A DNA stretch of 64,000 bases from a virus. Below the pieces are notes generated by a model, which was not told the origin of the DNA, searched no databases, and saw only the letters and a list, made by a program, of their open reading frames with translations. The DNA lies in IMG/VR virus record IMGVR_UViG_3300042562_002450, positions 1-64,000 of that record; one strand, given 5' to 3'. The number at the start of each line of letters is the position of its first letter. Positions within the stretch are counted from its first letter, which is position 1. Shown in pieces: positions 9,307-39,100 of the stretch. Position numbers and translations under genes: made by a program.

Positions 9307-10230
9307 ATGATGACACCTGTCGACATTAAAAATGAATTAGATAAATACGTCATAGGTCATGATGAAGCAAAGAAATATCTTTCTATTGCTGGATACAATC
9401 ATCTTAAGAGAATGAATGGCAATAATATTAAAAAAACAAATGTATTATTAATTGGCCCCACAGGGTCTGGAAAAACCTATATGATTACCATGTTGGCAAA
9501 CATATTAGGTGTAAAGTATTCTTCTTTTGATGCAACTCAGTTCTCAGCAATAGGATATGAAGGCAAAGACGTAGAAGACATAATAACTGATTTAGTAAAT
9601 AATTGTGAAAACAATGAAAAAGAAGCAAGTAGATCTATTGTCTACATAGATGAGATTGATAAGATTAGAAAAAAGAAAGTAAGCGGATCGTTTGATATAA
9701 GTGGACTAGGAGTTCAACAATCACTTTTAAAAGTGCTAGAAGGCTCGGACATACCATACGTTTCAAAGTACTCAAATAATGGACAGTATGATGAAAAACT
9801 TAATACTGAAAATATATTATTTATAGCATCTGGAGCCTTTGTTGATTTAACAGAGGTCAGCACAAAAGGTCTTATAGAATATGGAATGATTCCAGAATTC
9901 CTAGGAAGATTTTCAATCACAGCAAAGCTTGAGGCATTAACTCTATCTCATTATGTTAAAATATTAAAAGATTCGGAAGGCTCTATTATCAAATCATATA
10001 AAGAATGGTTTTTGACAGAAGGCATAGAGCTAGTAATACATGAAAGCGCTATAAACTTTTTAGCCACGGAAGCAATGAAAAGAGATCTAGGGGCTAGAGG
10101 CTTACATATTGCACTAGAAGAAGCATTGATAAATGCTCAATTCGAAGCACCCAGTATGGTAATCAAGCCTAAGCAAATAATTCTAAACTCAATAAATATT
10201 AAGACAAAAATTCCTTTCTGGGTTTTTTAA
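9307..10230 (+). CDS. ClpX/HslU-like AAA+ ATPase, 307 aa
   Basis: The AAA+ core is complete: Walker A GPTGSGKT at residues 50-57, Walker B SIVYIDEIDKI near 110-120, the GLGVQQSLLKVLEG segment, MIPEFLGRF, and the sensor-2 DLGARGL. It is shorter than ClpX because the N-terminal zinc domain is absent, and by eye the loop that carries the ClpP-binding IGF tripeptide is also missing. It is likely an unfoldase, and a partner protease could be the ClpP-like protein at 29951, although the missing loop argues against standard docking. Confidence 0.88.
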   Translation: MMTPVDIKNELDKYVIGHDEAKKYLSIAGYNHLKRMNGNNIKKTNVLLIGPTGSGKTYMITMLANILGVKYSSFDATQFSAIGYEGKDVEDIITDLVNNCENNEKEASRSIVYIDEIDKIRKKKVSGSFDISGLGVQQSLLKVLEGSDIPYVSKYSNNGQYDEKLNTENILFIASGAFVDLTEVSTKGLIEYGMIPEFLGRFSITAKLEALTLSHYVKILKDSEGSIIKSYKEWFLTEGIELVIHESAINFLATEAMKRDLGARGLHIALEEALINAQFEAPSMVIKPKQIILNSINIKTKIPFWVF

Positions 10231-18720: not shown

Positions 18721-20316
18721 ATGAGTAAATTAATTGAAATAAAAGATACAAGATCTGTAATACTTAAACCTGTTAAAGAAATGGAAGAGATTGTCTGTTC
18801 AACTATGGGACCACATGGTCAAAACGTAATGCTTCGTAATGAAGCAGATTCTCCTGTGATTACTAAAGATGGTGTTACTGTTGCAAAGTCTGTAAATTCA
18901 GATGATGCATTTGAACAATTGATCTTTGACATATTAAAGCAAGCTGCTGAAAGAACAAACAGTGAAGCTGGAGATGGGACTACAACTGCAACTTCTATTG
19001 CAGCGAATACATTTAAAGAAGGTTTTAAACTTATATCTGCAGATGTTGATCCAATGTCCATTAAAAGAGAAATCGATCTCTTTTTAGAAACATATAAAGA
19101 TGAACTTAAAAAACATCGAGTAATATTTAAAGATAATAGTGACAAGGAAATTCAAGATACTTTATATAAGATAGCAATGATATCAACAAATGGTGATATT
19201 GAAATGTCTAAAGTTATCTCTGAAGCAACTGCTCGGGCTGGACTAAGTGGAATCATTAACATTAAACAAGCAACAGGTGACTATGGCATTACTCAAAGTA
19301 AAGGTGTTAAAATTCCTAATGCTGGTGTTGTTAACTATGATTTTGTTAAAGGCACAGTCGATAAAAAAGTCACTCTTAAAAATGTTTACGTCTTACTGAC
19401 AACTTATGAGCTTGAAAATCCAAGCTTACTAACTGATCTTAAACCAACATTTGAACATATTGGAAAGAATGGATCACTCCTTATTATTTCAAAGAAAGTA
19501 GACAAGGGCTTTTTAGCTCACTTATTGCAATGGAATGCAACTGGTCAACTTAAGAATGCTGCTGTTAGAGCTCCATATTTTGGTGCTGTTGGTAGGGAAA
19601 TGATGGACGATCTAGCCGCCTATCTTGGAACTGTTGTTATTGAGGAAGATAAGAAGCATTCTTTTGCTAAGCTTGAAGCCAATATGCTTGGGCGTGTAGA
19701 AGAAGCTGATGTGACTCCACACTATACAATTTTACGTGGTGTAAATCCAGACAAGGTGCGATTAGCTCAAAGAATTAAACTTCTTGAAGATAAGCTAGAA
19801 ACAATTAAAGATAAACAAAGTGACCCAGATAAAACCCTAGAAAGACTATCGTTACTTAATGGTAAAGTATTTACTATATCTGTTCCTTCTATCTCAGAGA
19901 TTGAAGATAAAGAAAGAATGGATAGAATAGATGATGCTATCAATGCCTGCAAAGGTGCATTGAAGTATGGATATATTCCTGGTGGTGGTATTACACTAGC
20001 TCGTATAGGTAGAGATAGTAAATCTTCTCTTATTCAAAAAATCTTAACAAGTCCATTAAGTAAGATATTAAGCAATGCAGGAAAATCAGAGCATCAAGCT
20101 ATTTGTCTTCTTGAAGATGAACAAGATGTATCTACTTCTTACGACTTAAGAAATGGTATTGAAGGTGATGCGTTAGAGATTGGAGTAATTGATCCTTATA
20201 AAGTAGCTGAGTGTGCAGTAATTAATGGCTTATCTGTTGGCTCAATGTTGCTAACTACAAAAGCAATTATATTGCCAAAACAAACAAAAGAAACCGCATT
20301 CGATATGTCTTACTAA
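18721..20316 (+). CDS. groEL: GroEL-like chaperonin, 531 aa
   Basis: This is a full-length group I chaperonin. The ATP site motifs MGPHGQNV and AGDGTTTA (D85) are intact, and so is the PGGGI region near residue 420. The C-terminus lacks the usual GGM repeats. It would fold phage or host proteins in an ATP-driven chamber. Phage-encoded GroELs are known in a few giant phages (for example EL), some of which work without GroES; here both partners are present. Confidence 0.95.
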   Translation: MSKLIEIKDTRSVILKPVKEMEEIVCSTMGPHGQNVMLRNEADSPVITKDGVTVAKSVNSDDAFEQLIFDILKQAAERTNSEAGDGTTTATSIAANTFKEGFKLISADVDPMSIKREIDLFLETYKDELKKHRVIFKDNSDKEIQDTLYKIAMISTNGDIEMSKVISEATARAGLSGIINIKQATGDYGITQSKGVKIPNAGVVNYDFVKGTVDKKVTLKNVYVLLTTYELENPSLLTDLKPTFEHIGKNGSLLIISKKVDKGFLAHLLQWNATGQLKNAAVRAPYFGAVGREMMDDLAAYLGTVVIEEDKKHSFAKLEANMLGRVEEADVTPHYTILRGVNPDKVRLAQRIKLLEDKLETIKDKQSDPDKTLERLSLLNGKVFTISVPSISEIEDKERMDRIDDAINACKGALKYGYIPGGGITLARIGRDSKSSLIQKILTSPLSKILSNAGKSEHQAICLLEDEQDVSTSYDLRNGIEGDALEIGVIDPYKVAECAVINGLSVGSMLLTTKAIILPKQTKETAFDMSY

Positions 20317-21173: not shown

Positions 21174-21530
21174 ATGTCTGAAAATGTTAAACAGAAAAAA
21201 GTAGTAAAAAAAACTGTACAAGTCGGTGGGCAAAAAGTGCCTATGTACATTTGTCCTCCAGGAATGTCTGGTCTAGGTTTAGATCTAGAAAAGCATTTTA
21301 ATCAAGAAGACAAAGAAGAAGCTATCTTCGAAGTTATTGATAACTCACAAGCAGCAGAACTTGTACTTACAGAGGATTATGCTTTTGTAAGAGCTTATCA
21401 AAAATATTGCGATGATGGTGAAGTCGACAATGCAATGGTTGAGGACTTTGTTAATTATAAACAAATAAACAAGTACTATGACCCTGAAAGTGATTTAAAC
21501 AAAGATTTGGTATCAATATTCAATAACTAA
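21174..21530 (+). CDS. Hypothetical protein, first gene of the PRTRC-like unit, 118 aa
   Basis: TTTGGAGTACAT precedes the ATG. The N-terminus is lysine-rich (KQKKVVKKTVQ) and the rest acidic and helical. It lies directly upstream of the ubiquitin-like gene cluster. In known PRTRC cassettes a gene called E occupies a similar place, but I cannot establish homology by eye. Confidence 0.6.
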   Translation: MSENVKQKKVVKKTVQVGGQKVPMYICPPGMSGLGLDLEKHFNQEDKEEAIFEVIDNSQAAELVLTEDYAFVRAYQKYCDDGEVDNAMVEDFVNYKQINKYYDPESDLNKDLVSIFNN

Positions 21531-21570
21531 AGAACGTGGGGTTCTTTAGCTTTTAATCAAGGAGATTTCT

Positions 21571-21921
21571 ATGTCAACGCTCAAAACTGGAATGGTTTAT
21601 CAACGTACTCTTAAGGGACCAAATTATCTTTGTCTCGGTAAGGCTAGTGTCAATGGTAAGACCATGGTTATTTCTGTAAAAAACGGAAATATTAATGCAA
21701 ATGGTAAGTCACGCACGTTATCAAAAGCTGATGGTGGTGTAGTTATATTTGCTCACATGCCTGAAGACATTGCTCGCGTTCATCAAATTCGTAAAGTAGA
21801 TGTTGGATCTGTCTTTACAAAAGGTGCTGCAAGTACTGCTATTCAAACAACACTTAAACGTCTACTAACTCAAGGTATTGAAACAGCTGGGGAGCTGCCA
21901 TCTCTCGCAGAGCTTCGATAG
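21571..21921 (+). CDS. Hypothetical protein upstream of the ubiquitin-like gene, 116 aa
   Basis: AAGGAGATTTCT precedes the ATG. A beta-rich, basic N-terminal half (YQRTLKGPNYLCLGKASVNGK) is followed by a helical C-terminus. The next gene, the ubiquitin-like protein C, starts 35 bases later with its own strong site. It may be an accessory PRTRC component. Confidence 0.6.
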   Translation: MSTLKTGMVYQRTLKGPNYLCLGKASVNGKTMVISVKNGNINANGKSRTLSKADGGVVIFAHMPEDIARVHQIRKVDVGSVFTKGAASTAIQTTLKRLLTQGIETAGELPSLAELR

Positions 21922-21955
21922 TCAAACAAACAAACACTCTAACGAGGAGAAAAAC

Positions 21956-22135
21956 ATGTCTCAAAAAAGAATTATTTTCGGTGAAACATCAGTACCTGTA
22001 CCTGATGCTGTAACTTCAGTAGAACAAGCTCGCGGATTCGCTGCTGCATTCCTTCCAGGTCTTTCAGATTCTGAAGGTTTCATCAATGAAGATGGCGATT
22101 ATGAATTTCGTAAAAAAGCTGGAACTAAAGGTTAA
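21956..22135 (+). CDS. PRTRC protein C, ubiquitin-like, 59 aa
   Basis: I chose ATG 21956, preceded by GAGGAGAAAAAC. The sequence has the PRTRC-C pattern: an N-terminal strand, PVPDAVTSVEQAR, a helix leading to FLPGLSDSEGF, a strand, and the C-terminus KKAGTKG. PRTRC C proteins have been linked to the prokaryotic ubiquitin-like fold, and the glycine end is where an E1 would adenylate. The conserved GTKG tail supports the call strongly. A terminator follows directly, so this gene may be expressed more than those downstream. Confidence 0.8.
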   Translation: MSQKRIIFGETSVPVPDAVTSVEQARGFAAAFLPGLSDSEGFINEDGDYEFRKKAGTKG

Positions 22136-22152
22136 TCTTTAGGTCTGAATCC

Positions 22153-22175
22153 AAGGGGGCTTCGGCCCCCTTTTT
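22153..22175 (+). terminator. Strong terminator after the ubiquitin-like gene
   Basis: Stem GGGGGC/GCCCCC with a TTCG tetraloop is followed by five T. It sits between the ubiquitin-like gene and the rest of the cassette, so downstream genes may depend on read-through or another promoter. Confidence 0.9.
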
Positions 22176-22187
22176 AAAAGGCCATAT

Positions 22188-22475
22188 ATGTTAAAGATAG
22201 AAAGACTTGAAAATCATAAGAACTTAGAATCAGTTCTTGAATCAAAAAAAAAGATATTTAATTTAATGGTAAAAGTGAATGGTTCAATGAATACATTTCA
22301 CAAAGAAATTAAAACACTAAGAGAAATCGAAGTGCTTGCCGAAGATTACTTTATTTCAAAAGAAGAAATAAAAGCATTAAAAGAAAAATCTTTTGGCCTA
22401 AATGAATCGTCAGTAATCGAAAAATTAAAAAATATAAAAAATAGTAAAATAGCTGTCTCAATAGACTTTATTTAA
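22188..22475 (+). CDS. Hypothetical helical protein in the PRTRC cassette, 95 aa
   Basis: AAAAGGCCATAT precedes the ATG. The protein is almost entirely alpha-helical and lysine-rich. It lies between the ubiquitin-like gene and the probable F gene. It has no counterpart that I recognise in known PRTRC sets. Confidence 0.55.
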   Translation: MLKIERLENHKNLESVLESKKKIFNLMVKVNGSMNTFHKEIKTLREIEVLAEDYFISKEEIKALKEKSFGLNESSVIEKLKNIKNSKIAVSIDFI

Positions 22476-22486
22476 AAGGTAAATAT

Positions 22487-23410
22487 ATGGATCAGTTAGT
22501 TATAGAAACAGATATACAAAGAGCTCCTAGTTTTATTAATAGCTCAGAAAATATATTTTTTGATTTAGACTATAGTTATCTCCTTAACTTTTGGTATACA
22601 TCTAAAGTAAATAAAGAAAATAATTATATAAAAAGAAATGGATTACATCCATATTTTCTGTTCAATGAAAACTTAAATTCAAACTCATTTATTACTTCTA
22701 ATGCAGAGGGTAACAGTGTTAATTTGAAAACAGTTTTTTACACTGTATTTAAAATATTCCTTGAGAATGTATTTAAAGATTTTAAAATAAGTAAAACAAG
22801 AGATGTTGAAGAATGGAAACTTTTATTTCCAGCAGATAAGAATGGTTTAGACTCTGAGCAATATCTTAAGTTTAGTTATTGTGAGCATCGTGAACTTAAT
22901 CTATATCCATTAATGCTACAAAGCATAAGGCCAAGATATGGTGTCACTCACCTTCCATCATTTAAAGTTCTTTTAAATAAAAAAGACATTTTACAATCTA
23001 AAGAAATATTTAATTGTTTTAATCAAATAGATGAGGAAGTATCTTCTACTATTGATGAAGGCTTAAAAAGTGTTCTTAATTCTTTACTTGAGCAAATGAT
23101 TTACAGAGATATATTTAAAGTTCCACAAACTTTGATAGCTGAAACAGTTCAGGCGGAAATGGATGCCGACATGGATGATAATGAAGATACAGAAGAATAC
23201 CTCGAGATAGTTGAAGAAAGGGTTCATCGTCTTCTTCCTGTTTGGTCAGCGATTCAAGCAAATGTCCCAGCAATGATTGCAGGGCGGGCTCGTTTTAGCT
23301 TTCTTCTTGCTTATGCTAAAGCGCAACAACCTTCTTTGTTTGATAATATTCAAGACTCAGATGAGAACTATGACGGTATCTCTAGACTAATAAATAATTT
23401 TGCCGCATAG
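22487..23410 (+). CDS. Putative PRTRC protein F, 307 aa
   Basis: AAAAGGTAAATAT precedes the ATG. No catalytic motif is visible. The C-terminal third, with RVHRLLPVWSAIQANVPAMIAGRARF, and the position between proteins C and B match the slot of PRTRC protein F. I therefore assign it mainly on gene order, with modest sequence resemblance. Its role in these cassettes is not known. Confidence 0.55.
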   Translation: MDQLVIETDIQRAPSFINSSENIFFDLDYSYLLNFWYTSKVNKENNYIKRNGLHPYFLFNENLNSNSFITSNAEGNSVNLKTVFYTVFKIFLENVFKDFKISKTRDVEEWKLLFPADKNGLDSEQYLKFSYCEHRELNLYPLMLQSIRPRYGVTHLPSFKVLLNKKDILQSKEIFNCFNQIDEEVSSTIDEGLKSVLNSLLEQMIYRDIFKVPQTLIAETVQAEMDADMDDNEDTEEYLEIVEERVHRLLPVWSAIQANVPAMIAGRARFSFLLAYAKAQQPSLFDNIQDSDENYDGISRLINNFAA

Positions 23411-23419
23411 GAGGATCTT

Positions 23420-24223
23420 ATGATTAATATTAAAGTTTTAAAAGACTTTGCAGAAGTTAGCTATCAGATCTCAGGATCACAAAAAAAAGAGACAAAGATA
23501 GTAGGTCTTTCCGAAATTCCATTGCTTTTTGATACAAAGATTTCTTTTGATTCTGGTATCTTACCTCTTTTTGGTAATGAGAATGCTTTGGGTATTCAAA
23601 GATTGGTACAGCGAGATAATTACTATTATGTTTTGGTTCAAGGTATTAATCCTTTTCTTAACACAAGACATGTTGCAGGTAATGTTTTTACAGATAAAGA
23701 TTTGAAAAATTTTAAACTGAATCATATTGAGAATACTGATCTTTTGATATCCAAGAAGGGTGATGTGTATGAATATAAGAATGTTTATTATCCAAATCTA
23801 TTAATGTCTTTGATGCTTAAAAAAGAAACAAAGGGCAGTCTTAAAATTGAAAAATCAGGAATACTTGCTTATTCAGATCATTTCATTTCAGAAGATACTC
23901 AACTTTATGAATTTCCATTTTCAAATACACATTCTGGTTCTGTTTATGGACAGATTTGTTGGGGTGGACAAGGGGCTCCACAGCTTGGATCTTTAGCTCA
24001 AAGTGTTGCTATAATGCAAAGTTTCTTAGGTTCAACAATGAATCATGACCTTTACAAGAAGGCATATGTTAATGGACATGCATTAGAAACCTCTTCTGAC
24101 TTACTGACATATTTGTCTTTAAAATCATCAGAGCTTAGTGCATTTCCTTACAAAGATATAGAGATGAAAAAGATAATTAAATACAATGACTTGATGTCTT
24201 ACCTTAATCAAAATTGGAAATAA
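23420..24223 (+). CDS. PRTRC protein B, E2-like, 267 aa
   Basis: GGAGGATCTT precedes the ATG. PRTRC B proteins are classed with a prokaryotic E2 (ubiquitin-conjugating) family that keeps a catalytic cysteine. Here the segment SVYGQICWGGQG contains C180, the only cysteine in the protein and therefore the obvious thioester candidate. Location between F and A is as expected. It would accept the ubiquitin-like protein from the ThiF protein and pass it to a target. Confidence 0.75.
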   Translation: MINIKVLKDFAEVSYQISGSQKKETKIVGLSEIPLLFDTKISFDSGILPLFGNENALGIQRLVQRDNYYYVLVQGINPFLNTRHVAGNVFTDKDLKNFKLNHIENTDLLISKKGDVYEYKNVYYPNLLMSLMLKKETKGSLKIEKSGILAYSDHFISEDTQLYEFPFSNTHSGSVYGQICWGGQGAPQLGSLAQSVAIMQSFLGSTMNHDLYKKAYVNGHALETSSDLLTYLSLKSSELSAFPYKDIEMKKIIKYNDLMSYLNQNWK

Positions 24224-24225
24224 AA

Positions 24226-25557
24226 ATGAGACTACCAAATCCTAAACATTTATCAGAAAATGTACAAGAAAAGCATTTAAATGGTCAGCAAGAAATGTCA
24301 TTACTTGAAAGAGTAAACAAAATAAGAAAACCAGAAACTGCTGTAGTTTCAGTTCAGGATCAGATGAATTTCTGGAACTATCTTAATGATATTCAATATG
24401 GCGCACTTAATAAAGACTTACTAACTAAAGCAAATACTTGGTTGTTAACTAAGGATTCAACATTCCTTATTCAAAAAAATAATACTGGATTCTATGCTGT
24501 TAAGAAAAGTGATGCAGGAATTCCAACATTACCTAAAATCGATTATCCAGATGCCTTCTTTGAATTAGCATATGGTCAAATTCCAAATTCTATTTTAGAA
24601 CAAATCATTGGCTTTTTTAGAGAGATCATGAAGCGTCATAATGATGCAGAAGCTTTCATTCAAGTTTATTGGGATAAGCAAGATAGTCAATATATTGTAA
24701 ACATTCCTAAACAAAGAATCTCAAAAGCATCAGTTAATTATGATGCAACAGAGAACTTAAATTTGAAAGATCCTGCAAGATATTTATTTGCCTATGAGTG
24801 TCATAGTCATAATTCTATGAAAGCTTTTTGGTCAGGTACGGATAATGCAGATGAAAAAGAACTAAGAGTCTATGGTGTGTTCGGTGAGTTAGATAAAGAT
24901 AACTATGCTTCAAAGCATCGCTTCTTTGTTGGAGAAGAGCAAATTGATTGTAACATAAAAGCTATTTTTGATATGCCTAAAGAAGAAGAGAAAAAGTATG
25001 TAGTCACTCATAAGAATAAACAATATTTTGTTTCTGGAAATAAACTACAGCTTGATGAAACTCCTAAGTATATCCTTGAAACAGAAGCAGGCGAAAAGCA
25101 CTATGTTCCATTGGATGGTGTTGTGCTTCATCGTAATGAGGTTGCCTTTCCTGAAACATGGTTTGCTAATATCAATGTTCCTCTTCCAGCTCAAACTCGT
25201 GAAAGATCAAATAACATATCTACTGTCTGGGATCTTGACTTTCCATCATATGGAAAAAAAGATAAAAAGAACGGTCCAAAAGATTTCTTTAATAAAGATC
25301 TTGTTAATCCTTTTTATAGTAGAGACTTTGATACTTTTGATGCTGAGTGGGATTACACTATGGAGCTTGAGCAAATGTCTGAAGAGATTGATGCGATTCT
25401 TGATAGAACAAATGGATTTGAAGATGAAGCATCTACACAGATGTTCCTTGAAAATCTTGAGTTTAAATCTTCTCTAAAAGAACTAGAACTCGCTATTCAT
25501 AATTATCATGTCACTGCCCGTGAAGCAGAGAAGGGGCCATCTGATGGAAGATACTAA
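24226..25557 (+). CDS. PRTRC protein A, JAB/JAMM metallopeptidase, 443 aa
   Basis: ATG 24226 is preceded by TTGGAAATAAAA. The JAMM zinc motif HxHx7Sx2D is perfect: H193, H195, S203, D206 in a sequence reading ECHSHNSMKAFWSGTD. Such domains cleave isopeptide or peptide bonds after ubiquitin-like proteins, so the protein may process or remove protein C. The C-terminal 200 residues have no recognised domain. Its 3' end overlaps the ThiF gene by 14 bases. Confidence 0.85.
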   Translation: MRLPNPKHLSENVQEKHLNGQQEMSLLERVNKIRKPETAVVSVQDQMNFWNYLNDIQYGALNKDLLTKANTWLLTKDSTFLIQKNNTGFYAVKKSDAGIPTLPKIDYPDAFFELAYGQIPNSILEQIIGFFREIMKRHNDAEAFIQVYWDKQDSQYIVNIPKQRISKASVNYDATENLNLKDPARYLFAYECHSHNSMKAFWSGTDNADEKELRVYGVFGELDKDNYASKHRFFVGEEQIDCNIKAIFDMPKEEEKKYVVTHKNKQYFVSGNKLQLDETPKYILETEAGEKHYVPLDGVVLHRNEVAFPETWFANINVPLPAQTRERSNNISTVWDLDFPSYGKKDKKNGPKDFFNKDLVNPFYSRDFDTFDAEWDYTMELEQMSEEIDAILDRTNGFEDEASTQMFLENLEFKSSLKELELAIHNYHVTAREAEKGPSDGRY

Positions 25558-26449
25558 TCTAGATATTCTTGCTAAGTTATTGCCAGTAGATAAAAAGTTA
25601 TTTGATAAATTAAATAACAAACAGAATAAATTTCAGTCTGTTCTTAATCTGCCATTAACTAGAATAGCTGAAGTTGATACTTACCATTCTAATGTAGATT
25701 TAAATGCCACTCCTATCCAGATCAATATAATTGGTGCTGGAGGGACTGGTGGTTATCTAGTTAGGGATCTTTCTCGTTTTATTTATTCAATAGAAAAAAG
25801 AACAAGTAAGTCTAATATCTCAATTACAATCTTTGATGGTGATAATGTTGAAGAGAAGAATATCTTAAGACAGAATTTTCTTCCTCATGATATTGGCCAA
25901 AACAAAGCTGAAGTATTAGCTCTCCGTCATGTGCGAGCCTTTGGAACAAATATTAACTATGTCCCCGAAATGTTTGAATCAGTTCATACTAGTTCACAGA
26001 AATGGCGTGGATTTAATAATAGCGAAAAAGGTACAATCATCTATGTAGGCTGTGTTGACAATAATGCAGCTCGTAGAGAAATCGCAAAGACAATGGAAAA
26101 CTTCAGGACAGAGAATTGGGGAAGACAATCTCAAGAAATTTGGTGGATCGATTCAGGGAATGAAAGGAAAACTGGACAAGTAATAGCTGGCTCAAATTAC
26201 CTGATGGATGTTACTGACTTTTATCCTGAGATATTACTTCCTGAGTATGATTCTAAAGAAGTTATTAGTTGTGCAGATCGCATGATGGAAGATGAACAAA
26301 ACATGTTTGTTAACCTTACAGCATCTAATCTTATTCTTAATTATTTAAGAAAAATAATTTTAAATGAGCCTATGATCACTAACGGATCTGTCTTTAATAT
26401 CGACAATAAAGTAGACAACTATTACATTTTAAAAGATAACAAAGGTTAA
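25544..26449 (+). CDS. PRTRC ThiF-family E1-like enzyme, 301 aa
   Basis: The start at 25544, with AAGGGGCC upstream, lies inside the end of protein A. E1 hallmarks are all visible: nucleotide loop IIGAGGTGG (residues 62-70), acidic D98 with EEKNILRQNF as in adenylating E1s, YVGCVDNNAARRE near residue 170, and a candidate catalytic C243 in VISCADRM. It should adenylate the C-terminal glycine of protein C. Confidence 0.88.
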   Translation: MEDTNLDILAKLLPVDKKLFDKLNNKQNKFQSVLNLPLTRIAEVDTYHSNVDLNATPIQINIIGAGGTGGYLVRDLSRFIYSIEKRTSKSNISITIFDGDNVEEKNILRQNFLPHDIGQNKAEVLALRHVRAFGTNINYVPEMFESVHTSSQKWRGFNNSEKGTIIYVGCVDNNAARREIAKTMENFRTENWGRQSQEIWWIDSGNERKTGQVIAGSNYLMDVTDFYPEILLPEYDSKEVISCADRMMEDEQNMFVNLTASNLILNYLRKIILNEPMITNGSVFNIDNKVDNYYILKDNKG

Positions 26450-26455
26450 GGGTAT

Positions 26456-26788
26456 ATGATCAGAGGACAAAAAGTATTAGCAGCAAATTTGAAAAAGACT
26501 TTTCTTAAAACTGAAATAAATAGTGCAATATCTATAGTTTCAAAAGACAACAAGACTTTTGCAATAAACATAGCTTCTAATCAAGTTGAAAGATCCGATG
26601 GTCTTATCCCTAATTCAGTAATCTTAACTGAGAAACCTATAGAAAACTTTAAAGTAATTTGTAGAGTTTTAACTGAGAATGTAATGTCTACAAGTGTCTT
26701 TGATGGTAACTGCAGAATTATAGCAAATTCAAGAATAGATAAGCTAAAGAGCTATGCAATCCTTAAGGAATTAAAAGATTGCATATAA
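26456..26788 (+). CDS. Hypothetical protein between E1 and reverse transcriptase, 110 aa
   Basis: It starts six bases after the ThiF gene and ends ten bases before the reverse transcriptase. The protein is basic and beta-rich with a charged N-terminus (MIRGQKVLAANLKKT). Its position links the ubiquitin-like genes and the reverse transcriptase in one operon. I do not recognise it. Confidence 0.6.
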   Translation: MIRGQKVLAANLKKTFLKTEINSAISIVSKDNKTFAINIASNQVERSDGLIPNSVILTEKPIENFKVICRVLTENVMSTSVFDGNCRIIANSRIDKLKSYAILKELKDCI

Positions 26789-26797
26789 GGAATGTCC

Positions 26798-27643
26798 ATG
26801 AAAACTTTCAAAACAATCAATGGGATAAGCTATCATTACATGAAATTTTTCCAAATTAAAAAGAATGGCAAGAAACGCGAAATCAACTCCCCTTGTGACG
26901 CATTAAAAGCCAAACAGAATAATCTTAAAGTTCTTCTAGAACAAGAGATCGATTCCGTACTTCCTCCTTATGTTGTTGGGTTTCGTAAATCCTATAACTT
27001 AAAAAAGAATGGAGATAGTCATTTGGGAAAAAAATGGGTTATAAACCTAGATGTAAAAGATTTTTTTCCAAGTATCAATAAAAAGATACTAGAAAAAGAA
27101 ATGATTGTTTTTAAAGATCTCTTAGAGAAGAATGGATATCTCTTTAGTGACTTTCTTGAATACGTTATTTTAAATAGGGCAATTCCGCAAGGAAGTCCAA
27201 TCAGCCCATTGCTTTCAAATTATATTGGTTACATCAGAATAGATCAAAAGGTTTATCCCTATCTATTAGAAAAATATGGAACAGAGCTATCTTATACAAG
27301 ATATGCAGATGACATAACATTATCTTTTAATTCTTTTTTAAAAAGAGAAGAAGTAATAGAAATGGTAAATGAAGTAATAAAAATAGTTGAAAGTGATGGG
27401 CTCTTTAAAATCAATCCAAAGAAAATCCAAATCATGCATAACTCTCAAAAACAAGTTGTGACTGGTGTGGTAGTTAATCAAAAGACATCATTAGGTAAAA
27501 AAGAAAAATTAAGATATCGGGCGATTGCACACAAACTTAAAAATAAGCAAATCGATATGACAGATGTCCTGCAAGGGAAATTGGCATATATCAATTCAAT
27601 TGATCCCGAATATTATCAAAAACTTAAAAGGAGTTTTTTATGA
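26798..27643 (+). CDS. Retron-like reverse transcriptase, 281 aa
   Basis: ATG 26798 is used because AAGGA at 26787-26791 is at proper distance. RT motifs occur in order: LDVKDFFPS (D85), IPQGSPISPLLSN, and YADD at 169-172. Features typical of retron RTs are present: a NAxxH-like NGDSH at 71-75 and VTG at 221-223. There is no maturase, protease or endonuclease domain. It should make cDNA from a cognate RNA. Its start overlaps no other RNA gene, so the template may lie downstream. Confidence 0.88.
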   Translation: MKTFKTINGISYHYMKFFQIKKNGKKREINSPCDALKAKQNNLKVLLEQEIDSVLPPYVVGFRKSYNLKKNGDSHLGKKWVINLDVKDFFPSINKKILEKEMIVFKDLLEKNGYLFSDFLEYVILNRAIPQGSPISPLLSNYIGYIRIDQKVYPYLLEKYGTELSYTRYADDITLSFNSFLKREEVIEMVNEVIKIVESDGLFKINPKKIQIMHNSQKQVVTGVVVNQKTSLGKKEKLRYRAIAHKLKNKQIDMTDVLQGKLAYINSIDPEYYQKLKRSFL

Positions 27644-29950: not shown

Positions 29951-30703
29951 ATGAAATACAATTTGAATTACTGGATGAGTCCAAAAAAGCAACAGAATGT
30001 AAATCCTCGTATTCATGAATATGAAGAAGAGAAAGAATCAGCTCCAATGATTGCTTCATTAAGTCAGAACACACATCCAATTTTCTCAAGAGCAATTCTT
30101 TTTGATCAAGAGATTAATGAAATGACTTCAACTGCATTAAGAGCAGAAGTCCTAGCTAAAAGTGCAGAAGACCCATCGGCTCCTATCTATTTATTCTTGG
30201 GATCTCCAGGTGGTGGACTTTACGAATCATTAGCTATCTATGATACGTTCCAATTGATTTCAAATCCTATCATTGCTATCTGCTCAGGCAAGGTTATGTC
30301 GGGTGGTATCTTGATTCTACTTGGTTGTGATATTCGATTATCAACACCAAATAATACTTTCATGATTCACCATGGTCACACAATGCTTAGTGGAAATGTT
30401 GTTCAATTAAAAGAACAGCATAATGAGATTGAATCTTTAAATGATCGTATGCTTGATATCATTATTAAGAAAACTGATATTAGCCGTGAGCAATTAAAGA
30501 CTTGGTTGGTTAAAGATCATTACATGAATCCTGAAGCTGCTTTAAAATATGGATTGATTCATCATCAGATCAGTTCTCTAGATGAAATCATCATTGAAAA
30601 AGAACCAATTCCTGTAGATGCTATTCTAGATAGCGCTGTTCAAAAGCCAAAGAAAAAAGCAGCTAAGAAGATTTCAAAAAAGAAAGTAACAAAGAAAAAA
30701 TAA
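29951..30703 (+). CDS. ClpP-like serine protease with lysine-rich tail, 250 aa
   Basis: The ClpP fold is evident: FLGSPGGGLYESLAIYD, then catalytic Ser117 (KVMSGG), His140 (MIHHGH) and Asp189 (KDHYMNPEAA). All three catalytic residues are present. Unlike classical ClpP there is an N-terminal extension of about 40 residues and a C-terminal tail of lysine blocks (KKISKKKVTKKK). It could form a proteolytic ring with the ClpX/HslU-like ATPase at 9307 or with host unfoldases. The basic tail may bind nucleic acid or membranes. Confidence 0.9.
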   Translation: MKYNLNYWMSPKKQQNVNPRIHEYEEEKESAPMIASLSQNTHPIFSRAILFDQEINEMTSTALRAEVLAKSAEDPSAPIYLFLGSPGGGLYESLAIYDTFQLISNPIIAICSGKVMSGGILILLGCDIRLSTPNNTFMIHHGHTMLSGNVVQLKEQHNEIESLNDRMLDIIIKKTDISREQLKTWLVKDHYMNPEAALKYGLIHHQISSLDEIIIEKEPIPVDAILDSAVQKPKKKAAKKISKKKVTKKK

Positions 30704-38038: not shown

Positions 38039-39100
38039 ATGAATGTAAATTTTAAAACAATTTTTTATGAAGAATTGATTGATACAAATTCAGAATATAA
38101 AAAAACAGCAGAAGAAACTATATCAAAGTTTCCAAATGCAAAAATAATAAAAGTAAAATCTCATAATAAAATTAAAGAATTATACGAGATAAATCCCCAA
38201 GAGTGGATTAAATCAAAAAAAGATTATTTAGTTCTTGGTATAAAAAAAGATCTAAAACATCAAGCAAATACAAAGTCCTCAGACTTTATAGCAGCATCAC
38301 ATACTACTGGATGCTTGGCATCTTGTCAGTATTGCTATGTTGCAAGAAATTCCGGCGGATCAAATGTCGCCAAATCTTATGTTAATATAAAAGAAATAAC
38401 TAATTCTATAGATAGTCATCAAAAAGAAATAGGTAAAAAAACGATAAGCAATCAGCAAGACTCAGATTTTTGGGTCTATGATATTGGATGCAATAATGAT
38501 AACAGTCTTGATGCATTCTATTCAAACAATTCAGTTAATTTAATAAATGCGTTTGCAGAAATGAAAAATGCAAAAGCATCTTTTGCTACAAAGTTTGTAA
38601 ATGAAGAAGCTTGGCTATCTGTTGACCCCAAAGGGAAAACAAGGATTAGGTATAGTCTAATGCCTCAAGAGGTATCTAAGTACGTAGATATTAGAACTAG
38701 TCCGATCTCTGATCGTATTAAGTCTATGAATAACTTGGTTGATGCAGGATACGAGGTTCATGCAAACTTTAGTCCTGTTATTGTTTATGGTGGAGACCAG
38801 TGGGCAAAAGACTGGAAAAAACTTTGGGAAGAGATGAATGATGTCTTAAATCAAAAAGTTAAAAATCAGCTAAAGTCAGAAGTTATATTCCTTACACATA
38901 GCCAAAAGCTTCATGAGCTTAATATGGAATGGAATCCAAAAGGTGAAGAATTCCTTTTTGGTCAAATTCATCAACATGAAAAATACAATAAGCCGGATGT
39001 GCTTGTTTATGATTATGCAGAAAAAAAGAAACTAGTAGAGCGATTTACTAATGGTATGAATAAATATATTCCTTATTGCAAGATAAGGTACATTTTTTAA
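38039..39100 (+). CDS. Spore photoproduct lyase-like radical SAM enzyme, 353 aa
   Basis: AAGGTGGTTAT precedes the ATG. The radical-SAM cluster motif CxxxCxxC is C92, C96, C99 within the SPL-type TTGCLASCQYCYV. Downstream RIRYSLMPQEVSKYVD also matches the SplB family. Spore photoproduct lyase reverses a UV-induced thymine dimer in spores. In this phage it might repair UV damage or a different thymine modification. No spore-forming host is indicated. Confidence 0.85.
   Translation: MNVNFKTIFYEELIDTNSEYKKTAEETISKFPNAKIIKVKSHNKIKELYEINPQEWIKSKKDYLVLGIKKDLKHQANTKSSDFIAASHTTGCLASCQYCYVARNSGGSNVAKSYVNIKEITNSIDSHQKEIGKKTISNQQDSDFWVYDIGCNNDNSLDAFYSNNSVNLINAFAEMKNAKASFATKFVNEEAWLSVDPKGKTRIRYSLMPQEVSKYVDIRTSPISDRIKSMNNLVDAGYEVHANFSPVIVYGGDQWAKDWKKLWEEMNDVLNQKVKNQLKSEVIFLTHSQKLHELNMEWNPKGEEFLFGQIHQHEKYNKPDVLVYDYAEKKKLVERFTNGMNKYIPYCKIRYIF

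Follow-up and report, generated by a model that had tools for sequence, protein, structure and literature searches.

Whether a bacterial virus can hold a ubiquitin-like protein together with enzymes that attach it to other proteins and remove it again is the question raised by the stretch of DNA analysed here, which is referred to as the window and comprises bases 1–64,000 of the IMG/VR virus record IMGVR_UViG_3300042562_002450, with a total length of 198,626 bp. The source of the window is a large tailed phage; its record contains a large terminase gene at 171 kb and also codes for DNA polymerase III alpha, a primase-helicase, RecA, six tRNAs, and ribonucleotide reductase-like and thymidylate synthase-like proteins. 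Within the window, a cassette of genes codes for a ubiquitin-like protein (C), a protein similar to ubiquitin-conjugating enzymes (E2; protein B), a JAMM metalloprotease (A) and an adenylating enzyme similar to ubiquitin-activating enzymes (E1; ThiF). We consider it probable that this cassette is a phage-encoded system for ubiquitin-like conjugation and deconjugation. A complete set of this kind on a phage had been proposed in an initial annotation made from the sequence alone, and the proposal is supported by the evidence given below.

The four proteins and the hallmark residues reported for them were all confirmed. C (21956..22135, plus strand, as are all cassette genes) has 59 amino acids and ends in AGTKG with no extension, and a ribosome-binding site, gaggag, lies immediately 5' of its ATG. 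B (23420..24223, +) has 267 amino acids and a single cysteine, C180, in the sequence ICWGG, with an HPN-like motif of the form FSN-x10-C. A (24226..25557, +) carries a C-terminal extension and the JAMM motif HSHNSMKAFWSGTD (HxHx7SxxD) with E142 upstream, the zinc-site residues being E142, H193, H195, S203 and D206. ThiF (25544..26449, +) contains GAGGTGG and the candidate catalytic cysteine C243. A fifth gene, which the initial annotation had not named, lies between C and B at 22487..23410 (+) and codes for a very divergent protein of 307 amino acids, here called F-like because of its position, which is that of F in the PRTRC cassette. In profile searches, ThiF scored 136.1 bits (E=1.2e-39) against TIGR03736, just under the cut-off of 144.75, and 8e-12 against Pfam ThiF, well above the cut-off; the best matches of its profile in the PDB are the E1 enzymes of NEDD8, ubiquitin and SUMO, ahead of bacterial ThiF. 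B reached 25.3 bits against Pfam Prok-E2_D (PF14460; cut-off 25) and 20.1 bits (E=3e-4; cut-off 131 bits) against TIGR03737. A scored 46.9 bits (E=2.3e-12; cut-off 101.8 bits) against TIGR03735 and weakly, below the Pfam cut-off, against Prok-JAB.

In order to find relatives, IMG/VR was scanned with an alignment of the JAMM protein, which gave at least 94 relatives, of which 80 were kept; a scan of viral contigs with a single ThiF protein gave no matches. The cassette had been described as occurring mostly on plasmids and other mobile elements, which understates its presence in viruses, as relatives are found on at least about 80 viral contigs, many of them longer than 100 kb. Among 50,697 records, eight named ones carry it: those of Salmonella phage Arash, Bacillus phage KLEB27-3 and Vibrio phages D69, D148 and D181, two of Acinetobacter phage ME3, and one of a contig from faeces. 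Terminase matches were obtained in 29 of the 40 cassette records checked (36 virus records, including that of the window, and four named phages). Profiles of C, B, A and ThiF were mapped onto 94 loci (individual loci are cited with the prefix L), and 65 of them contain all four genes (they come from plasmids as well as from viral contigs and named phages), in every case on the same strand and in the order C-B-A-ThiF (65/65). A further 80 loci, a few of them archaeal and the others from bacterial genomes, were mapped likewise. Three circular Bacillales “plasmids” of 215–240 kb with phage-like cassettes (L096, L097 and L011), two with tandem C and one with a terminase, are possibly phage-plasmids.

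The putative active sites are almost invariant among 74–83 distinct relatives. C180 of B is present in 80/80 and N169 in 79/80 relatives, and P125, N169 and C180 are invariant across 49 aligned sequences; relatives of B are only 14–23% identical to the B protein of the window. The consensus of the B family, PFPNxYxxGxxC, resembles the segment HPNxxxxGxxC of E2 enzymes. In A, the glutamate (74/74), both histidines (74/74 and 73/73), the serine (73/73) and the aspartate (74/74) are retained; the histidines belonged to the search pattern, which makes their conservation partly a product of the search, an effect that does not touch the other three residues or any of those in B and ThiF. In ThiF, the GxGG and DxD motifs, an asparagine and a lysine occur in 81–83 of 83 relatives, a further aspartate in 82/82, C243 in 80/80, and the N..RQ motif is nearly invariant. 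Some genes of the family are interrupted or misannotated. In phage ME3 (L005, 5164-7187), an insert of about 2 kb with an annotated tRNA-Met, resembling an intron or a mobile insertion, interrupts gene A exactly where the JAMM motif lies. The A or ThiF genes of cassettes from Bacillales and cyanobacteria (L133, L149, L157, L162, L163) are apparently split, several of them by a reverse transcriptase of about 600 amino acids, and these inserts are probably group II introns. The annotated start of ThiF in Vibrio phage D69 (L004, 7929-8186) lies too far downstream, so that the ATP-binding motif is lost.

C required a profile of its own. Public libraries of hidden Markov models (NCBIfam, Pfam) gave no match; TIGR03738 (cut-off 45.95 bits) found nothing at E<=1 in the record of the window, and neither did PF14454 (Prok_Ub) match C in a search of this record. 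TIGR03738 scores at most 19.6 bits with the other phages and 48–76 bits with three plasmids. A family profile was built from C proteins of three plasmids and three other phages, leaving out the window, and with it C is the sole significant match among the 828 open reading frames (ORFs) of the window (E=1e-6; next E=1.4). The expectation that both C and B would be recognised by such models was therefore borne out for B, and for C with the family-specific profile but not with public models. C is present as a single copy in the whole record. Directly 3' of it lies a strong intrinsic terminator (22153..22176, +; AAGGGGGC-TTCG-GCCCCCTTTTT), with a fold of -16.2 kcal/mol for the segment. Terminator-like hairpins follow 19 of 54 distinct C genes (18/53 plus that of the window), as opposed to 1/51 after F and 5/74 after B (Fisher p of about 8e-6 for the comparison with F and about 6e-5 for that with B, both optimistic owing to shared ancestry). 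This arrangement would fit a larger amount of mRNA for C than for the enzymes, as might be expected of a tag needed in excess. A search of Rfam around the cassette found nothing. In eleven loci (L057, L070, L072, L074, L078, L080, L081, L085, L091, L156 and L164), C carries a C-terminal extension of about 80–110 amino acids that follows GTKG or GEKG and ends in GF, and in phage Arash the annotated gp251c (L003, 102-320) lies in another frame overlapping the C gene.

Many relatives encode two to six head-to-tail units of C in one ORF, each ending in G[T/V]KG, often with a short tail after the last unit. Six units are found in the L041 group, five in L056, four in KLEB27-3, L054, L068 and L069, three in D69 and two in several others. 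Units 5 and 6 of L041 are identical in 52/52 residues with 34 differing codons; units 2 and 3 of KLEB27-3 and the units of L019 are likewise identical as proteins, with 30 and 25 differing codons, respectively. Identical proteins with synonymous codon changes between units are the signature of polyubiquitin. Old duplications kept identical at the protein level suggest that each unit would act as a released, equivalent product. Other arrays contain diverged units (D69, L056), and the distribution of single and multiple C on the ThiF tree requires at least seven changes. Tandem C as a feature of phages only was ruled out by a Bacillus plasmid, pAD3 (four units), a Cytobacillus plasmid (two) and two Anaerolineae genomes (two).

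Several observations weigh against reading the cassette as a ubiquitin-like system. The phage of the window has no tandem C, so that the polyubiquitin-like evidence comes from relatives only. None of the cut-offs of the TIGR models for C, A, B and ThiF is reached, and the tail of C is not universal, since C of ME3 ends in GNKAA and a candidate from Alteromonas in DSNG. C had been expected to have a ubiquitin fold; its AlphaFold2 model (49 sequences; mean predicted local distance difference test, pLDDT, 86) shows four strands and one helix in the order strand-strand-helix-strand-strand with a free GTKG tail, and is beta-grasp-like with Smt3 and protein G B1 among the nearest PDB folds, but none of the matches in the PDB search was significant. 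The model of B (pLDDT 85) also gave no significant match to the PDB in Foldseek, perhaps due to an extra N-terminal domain, and this result was given no weight in either direction. Finally, an E3 was not identified. The F-like protein gave no match to TIGR03742, and an ORF of at least 110 amino acids sits between C and B in most loci with both genes; a possible role for it is that of an adaptor or E3-like specificity factor.

Taken as a conjugation system, the cassette would work by adenylating C, passing it on as a thioester, and making and breaking an isopeptide bond. ThiF would adenylate the C-terminal glycine of C (GTKG), which would probably then be held as a thioester on C243 of ThiF and handed to C180 of B. 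Perhaps with the F-like protein as its guide, B would join C to an amine of the target, and A would strip it off again. In relatives with tandem or tailed C, A may also free the mature protein. Since C of the window already ends at its glycine and the active site of A is conserved, deconjugation is the favoured role of A here. Trypsin cuts after the lysine of GTKG and leaves one glycine (+57.02), which equals the mass of alkylation by iodoacetamide.

As for the target, our leading guess is phage late proteins, in virion assembly, for the clade linked to the terminase, and a phage or host protein for the phage of the window; virion or late phage proteins are ranked slightly above a host target. 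That C is attached to structural proteins and removed from them during morphogenesis is possible, though less likely than not. In 14 viral contigs and Salmonella phage Arash, C adjoins the large terminase gene in divergent transcription; in 13 of the contigs C and the terminase domain are 50–1,100 bp apart, in the remaining one 4.3 kb. In Arash, B (gp248c), ThiF (gp246c) and many genes there are labelled “structural protein”, a label that may stem from virion mass spectrometry. In the window, groEL lies about 2 kb upstream of the cassette, as would suit assembly, but some 49 kb or more separate the two from the terminase here and likewise in L014, L017 and L062, which form the neighbourhood of the window in the tree. 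Rather doubtful is a host protein as the target, to which C would be conjugated so as to disable a defence or redirect host functions. Such a role would fit the part of bacterial E1/E2/JAB systems in the arms race of phage and host, as described for Cap2 of CBASS (PMC10097602), and the fast divergence of the F-like protein is as expected of a host-facing factor; against it, no target or link to defence was found, the PADLOC matches being limited to weak, unspecific ones of ThiF to E1-E2 proteins.

We regard as improbable that proteins carrying C are destined for degradation by a Clp protease of the phage, in the manner of ubiquitin and the proteasome. The phage does code for a ClpX-like ATPase (9307-10230; ClpX 1e-85, below cut-off) and a ClpP-like protease (29951-30703), and ClpP is near the cassette in L014 and L017 too. 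However, ClpP occurs in just 7 of the 40 cassette records, which rules out coupling to ClpXP as a general rule, and ClpP-like proteins double as prohead proteases. A sulphur carrier function, with C and ThiF acting like ThiS-ThiF or MoaD-MoeB, is very improbable. The fold of ThiF, the glycine end of C and weak matches to sulphur-carrier adenylyltransferases would agree with it, but B with its invariant cysteine and the JAMM protein A stand beside ThiF in nearly all loci, the tail is GTKG and not GG, the best PDB matches are E1s of ubiquitin-like proteins, and no sulphur-transfer gene was noticed nearby. Given the tandem precursors, C is much more likely to be a tag that is processed and conjugated than to carry sulphur.

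Hardly credible is a plasmid-type PRTRC maintenance or partition module taken up by the phage, because, despite a gene order as in the PRTRC of Rhodoferax and an approximately unbiased (AU) test that does not reject a joint ThiF grouping (p=0.15), ParB and D occur in none of 13 phage records and the PRTRC ThiFs form a fully supported clade without the window. The cassette is instead a PRTRC-like phage variant, a relative of the plasmid PRTRC without ParB, and not a member of PRTRC. The initial annotation had matched the four proteins to PRTRC C, B, A and ThiF, which holds as homology, through the models for A, B and ThiF and the family profile for C, but not as strict membership. The absence of ParB and D that it had noted extends to the whole record. 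ParB (TIGR03734), a relative of which gives the PRTRC cassette its name, was detected in 0/13 phage records, including that of the window, with a positive control in the Rhodoferax plasmid. D (TIGR03739) and F (TIGR03742) were found in none of the 13 records, although of the four plasmid controls three likewise gave no match to the F model and two none to the D model. In the best tree, the PRTRC ThiFs cluster with 100% support and the ThiF of the window groups with L014; this supports a phylogenetic exclusion from PRTRC, which the AU test does not, so that exclusion on these grounds was not adopted.

The surroundings of the cassette add a further element. A retron-type reverse transcriptase (RT; 26792..27643, +) with QGSPIS, YADD and VTG motifs follows ThiF and matches RVT_1 at 1e-22 and the RT of retron St85 at 1e-51, the latter below cut-off. 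An RT lies within about 1.2 kb after ThiF in the window and in L014, L017, L058, L015, L062, L073 and L104, and about 4.6–6.4 kb downstream in six further lineages. Although the RTs just after ThiF share only 17–35% identity, they recur at the same spot in seven relatives that have diverged greatly, which may point to a function linked to the cassette. RTs of about 600 amino acids near Bacillales cassettes resemble group II intron proteins and were left out of the neighbour count. L014 and the window share the order GroEL, cassette, retron-type RT and ClpP. GroEL of the window (18721-20316) scores below the NCBIfam cut-off and is preceded by a small GroES-like ORF without a library match. Upstream of C, an ORF of 116 amino acids (21571..21921, +) has 39% identity to L014:6045-6413 (E=3e-11) at the same relative place and no significant library match, and is a possible counterpart of PRTRC E. 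TIGR03741 (PRTRC E) matched neither this ORF nor the one at 21174, for which the loci retrieved contained no homologue. ORFs of 95 amino acids between C and the F-like gene (22188..22475, +) and of 110 amino acids between ThiF and the RT (26456..26788, +) have no library match over the cut-off. Elsewhere in the window, 38039-39100 codes for a protein of the spore photoproduct lyase family (E=5e-113, below cut-off).

On a wider view, it is plausible, if on the doubtful side, that big tailed phages widely have a ubiquitin-type system of their own, made up of polyubiquitin-like precursors, an E1, an E2-like enzyme and a JAMM protease, which would modify virion or host proteins reversibly in the course of infection and may be coupled to an adjacent retron-type RT. 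Known bacterial ubiquitin-like systems have mostly been interpreted as defences of the host or as modules of plasmids, and here bacterial viruses hold the complete set. Phage polyubiquitin-like genes constrained at the protein level, as polyubiquitin is in eukaryotes, are relevant to how and where this organisation arises, and cassettes in cultured phages (Arash, KLEB27-3) make the function testable. In the open literature searched, no paper was found that describes tandem C precursors or C-F-B-A-ThiF cassettes of phages; subscription papers and preprints were outside the scope, and priority is not established.

Compared with known families, B lies at the cut-off of Prok-E2_D and ThiF well over that of its family, whereas A matches Prok-JAB weakly and under the cut-off and Prok_Ub is silent on C. 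With CBASS, the cassette shares bacterial E1/E2-type conjugation in the conflict of phage and host (PMC10097602). It differs in that CBASS uses an E1-E2 fusion on a cGAS-like enzyme and no separate ubiquitin-like protein (Ubl), and in that ThiF gives only a generic weak profile match. In CBASS, conjugation is reversed by a JAB protein, Cap3. Iyer et al. 2006 (PMC1779556) described bacterial operons of Ubl, E1, E2 and JAB genes, tandem Ubl proteins in which the unit occurs two to three times, and, in lambda, the pair TAPI-TAPK. The tail assembly proteins TAPI-TAPK of lambda and T1 (Ubl with JAB/NlpC) are similar in that a phage Ubl stands with a JAB protein predicted to process it, but the described cluster lacks E1 and E2 and belongs to other families (PMC1779556). 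The bacterial multi-Ubl operons (polyUbl, E2-like protein and JAB; PMC1779556) likewise combine tandem Ubl with a co-encoded JAB, whereas the phage cassettes have another C family with up to six repeats and are located on phages. In the multi-Ubl operons reviewed in PMC11354881, the E2-like protein is inactive, while the phage B keeps its active-site cysteine. The plasmid PRTRC cassette (TIGR03734-03742; plasmid of Rhodoferax ferrireducens T118, L008) has the same order of C, F position, B, A and ThiF, GTKG in C, and the same B cysteine, JAMM motif and ThiF cysteine. The phage cassette differs from it in having no ParB, D or canonical F, in scoring below every model cut-off, in a ThiF that the best tree places apart from the PRTRC clade, in its location on tailed phages and in the tandem C of many relatives.

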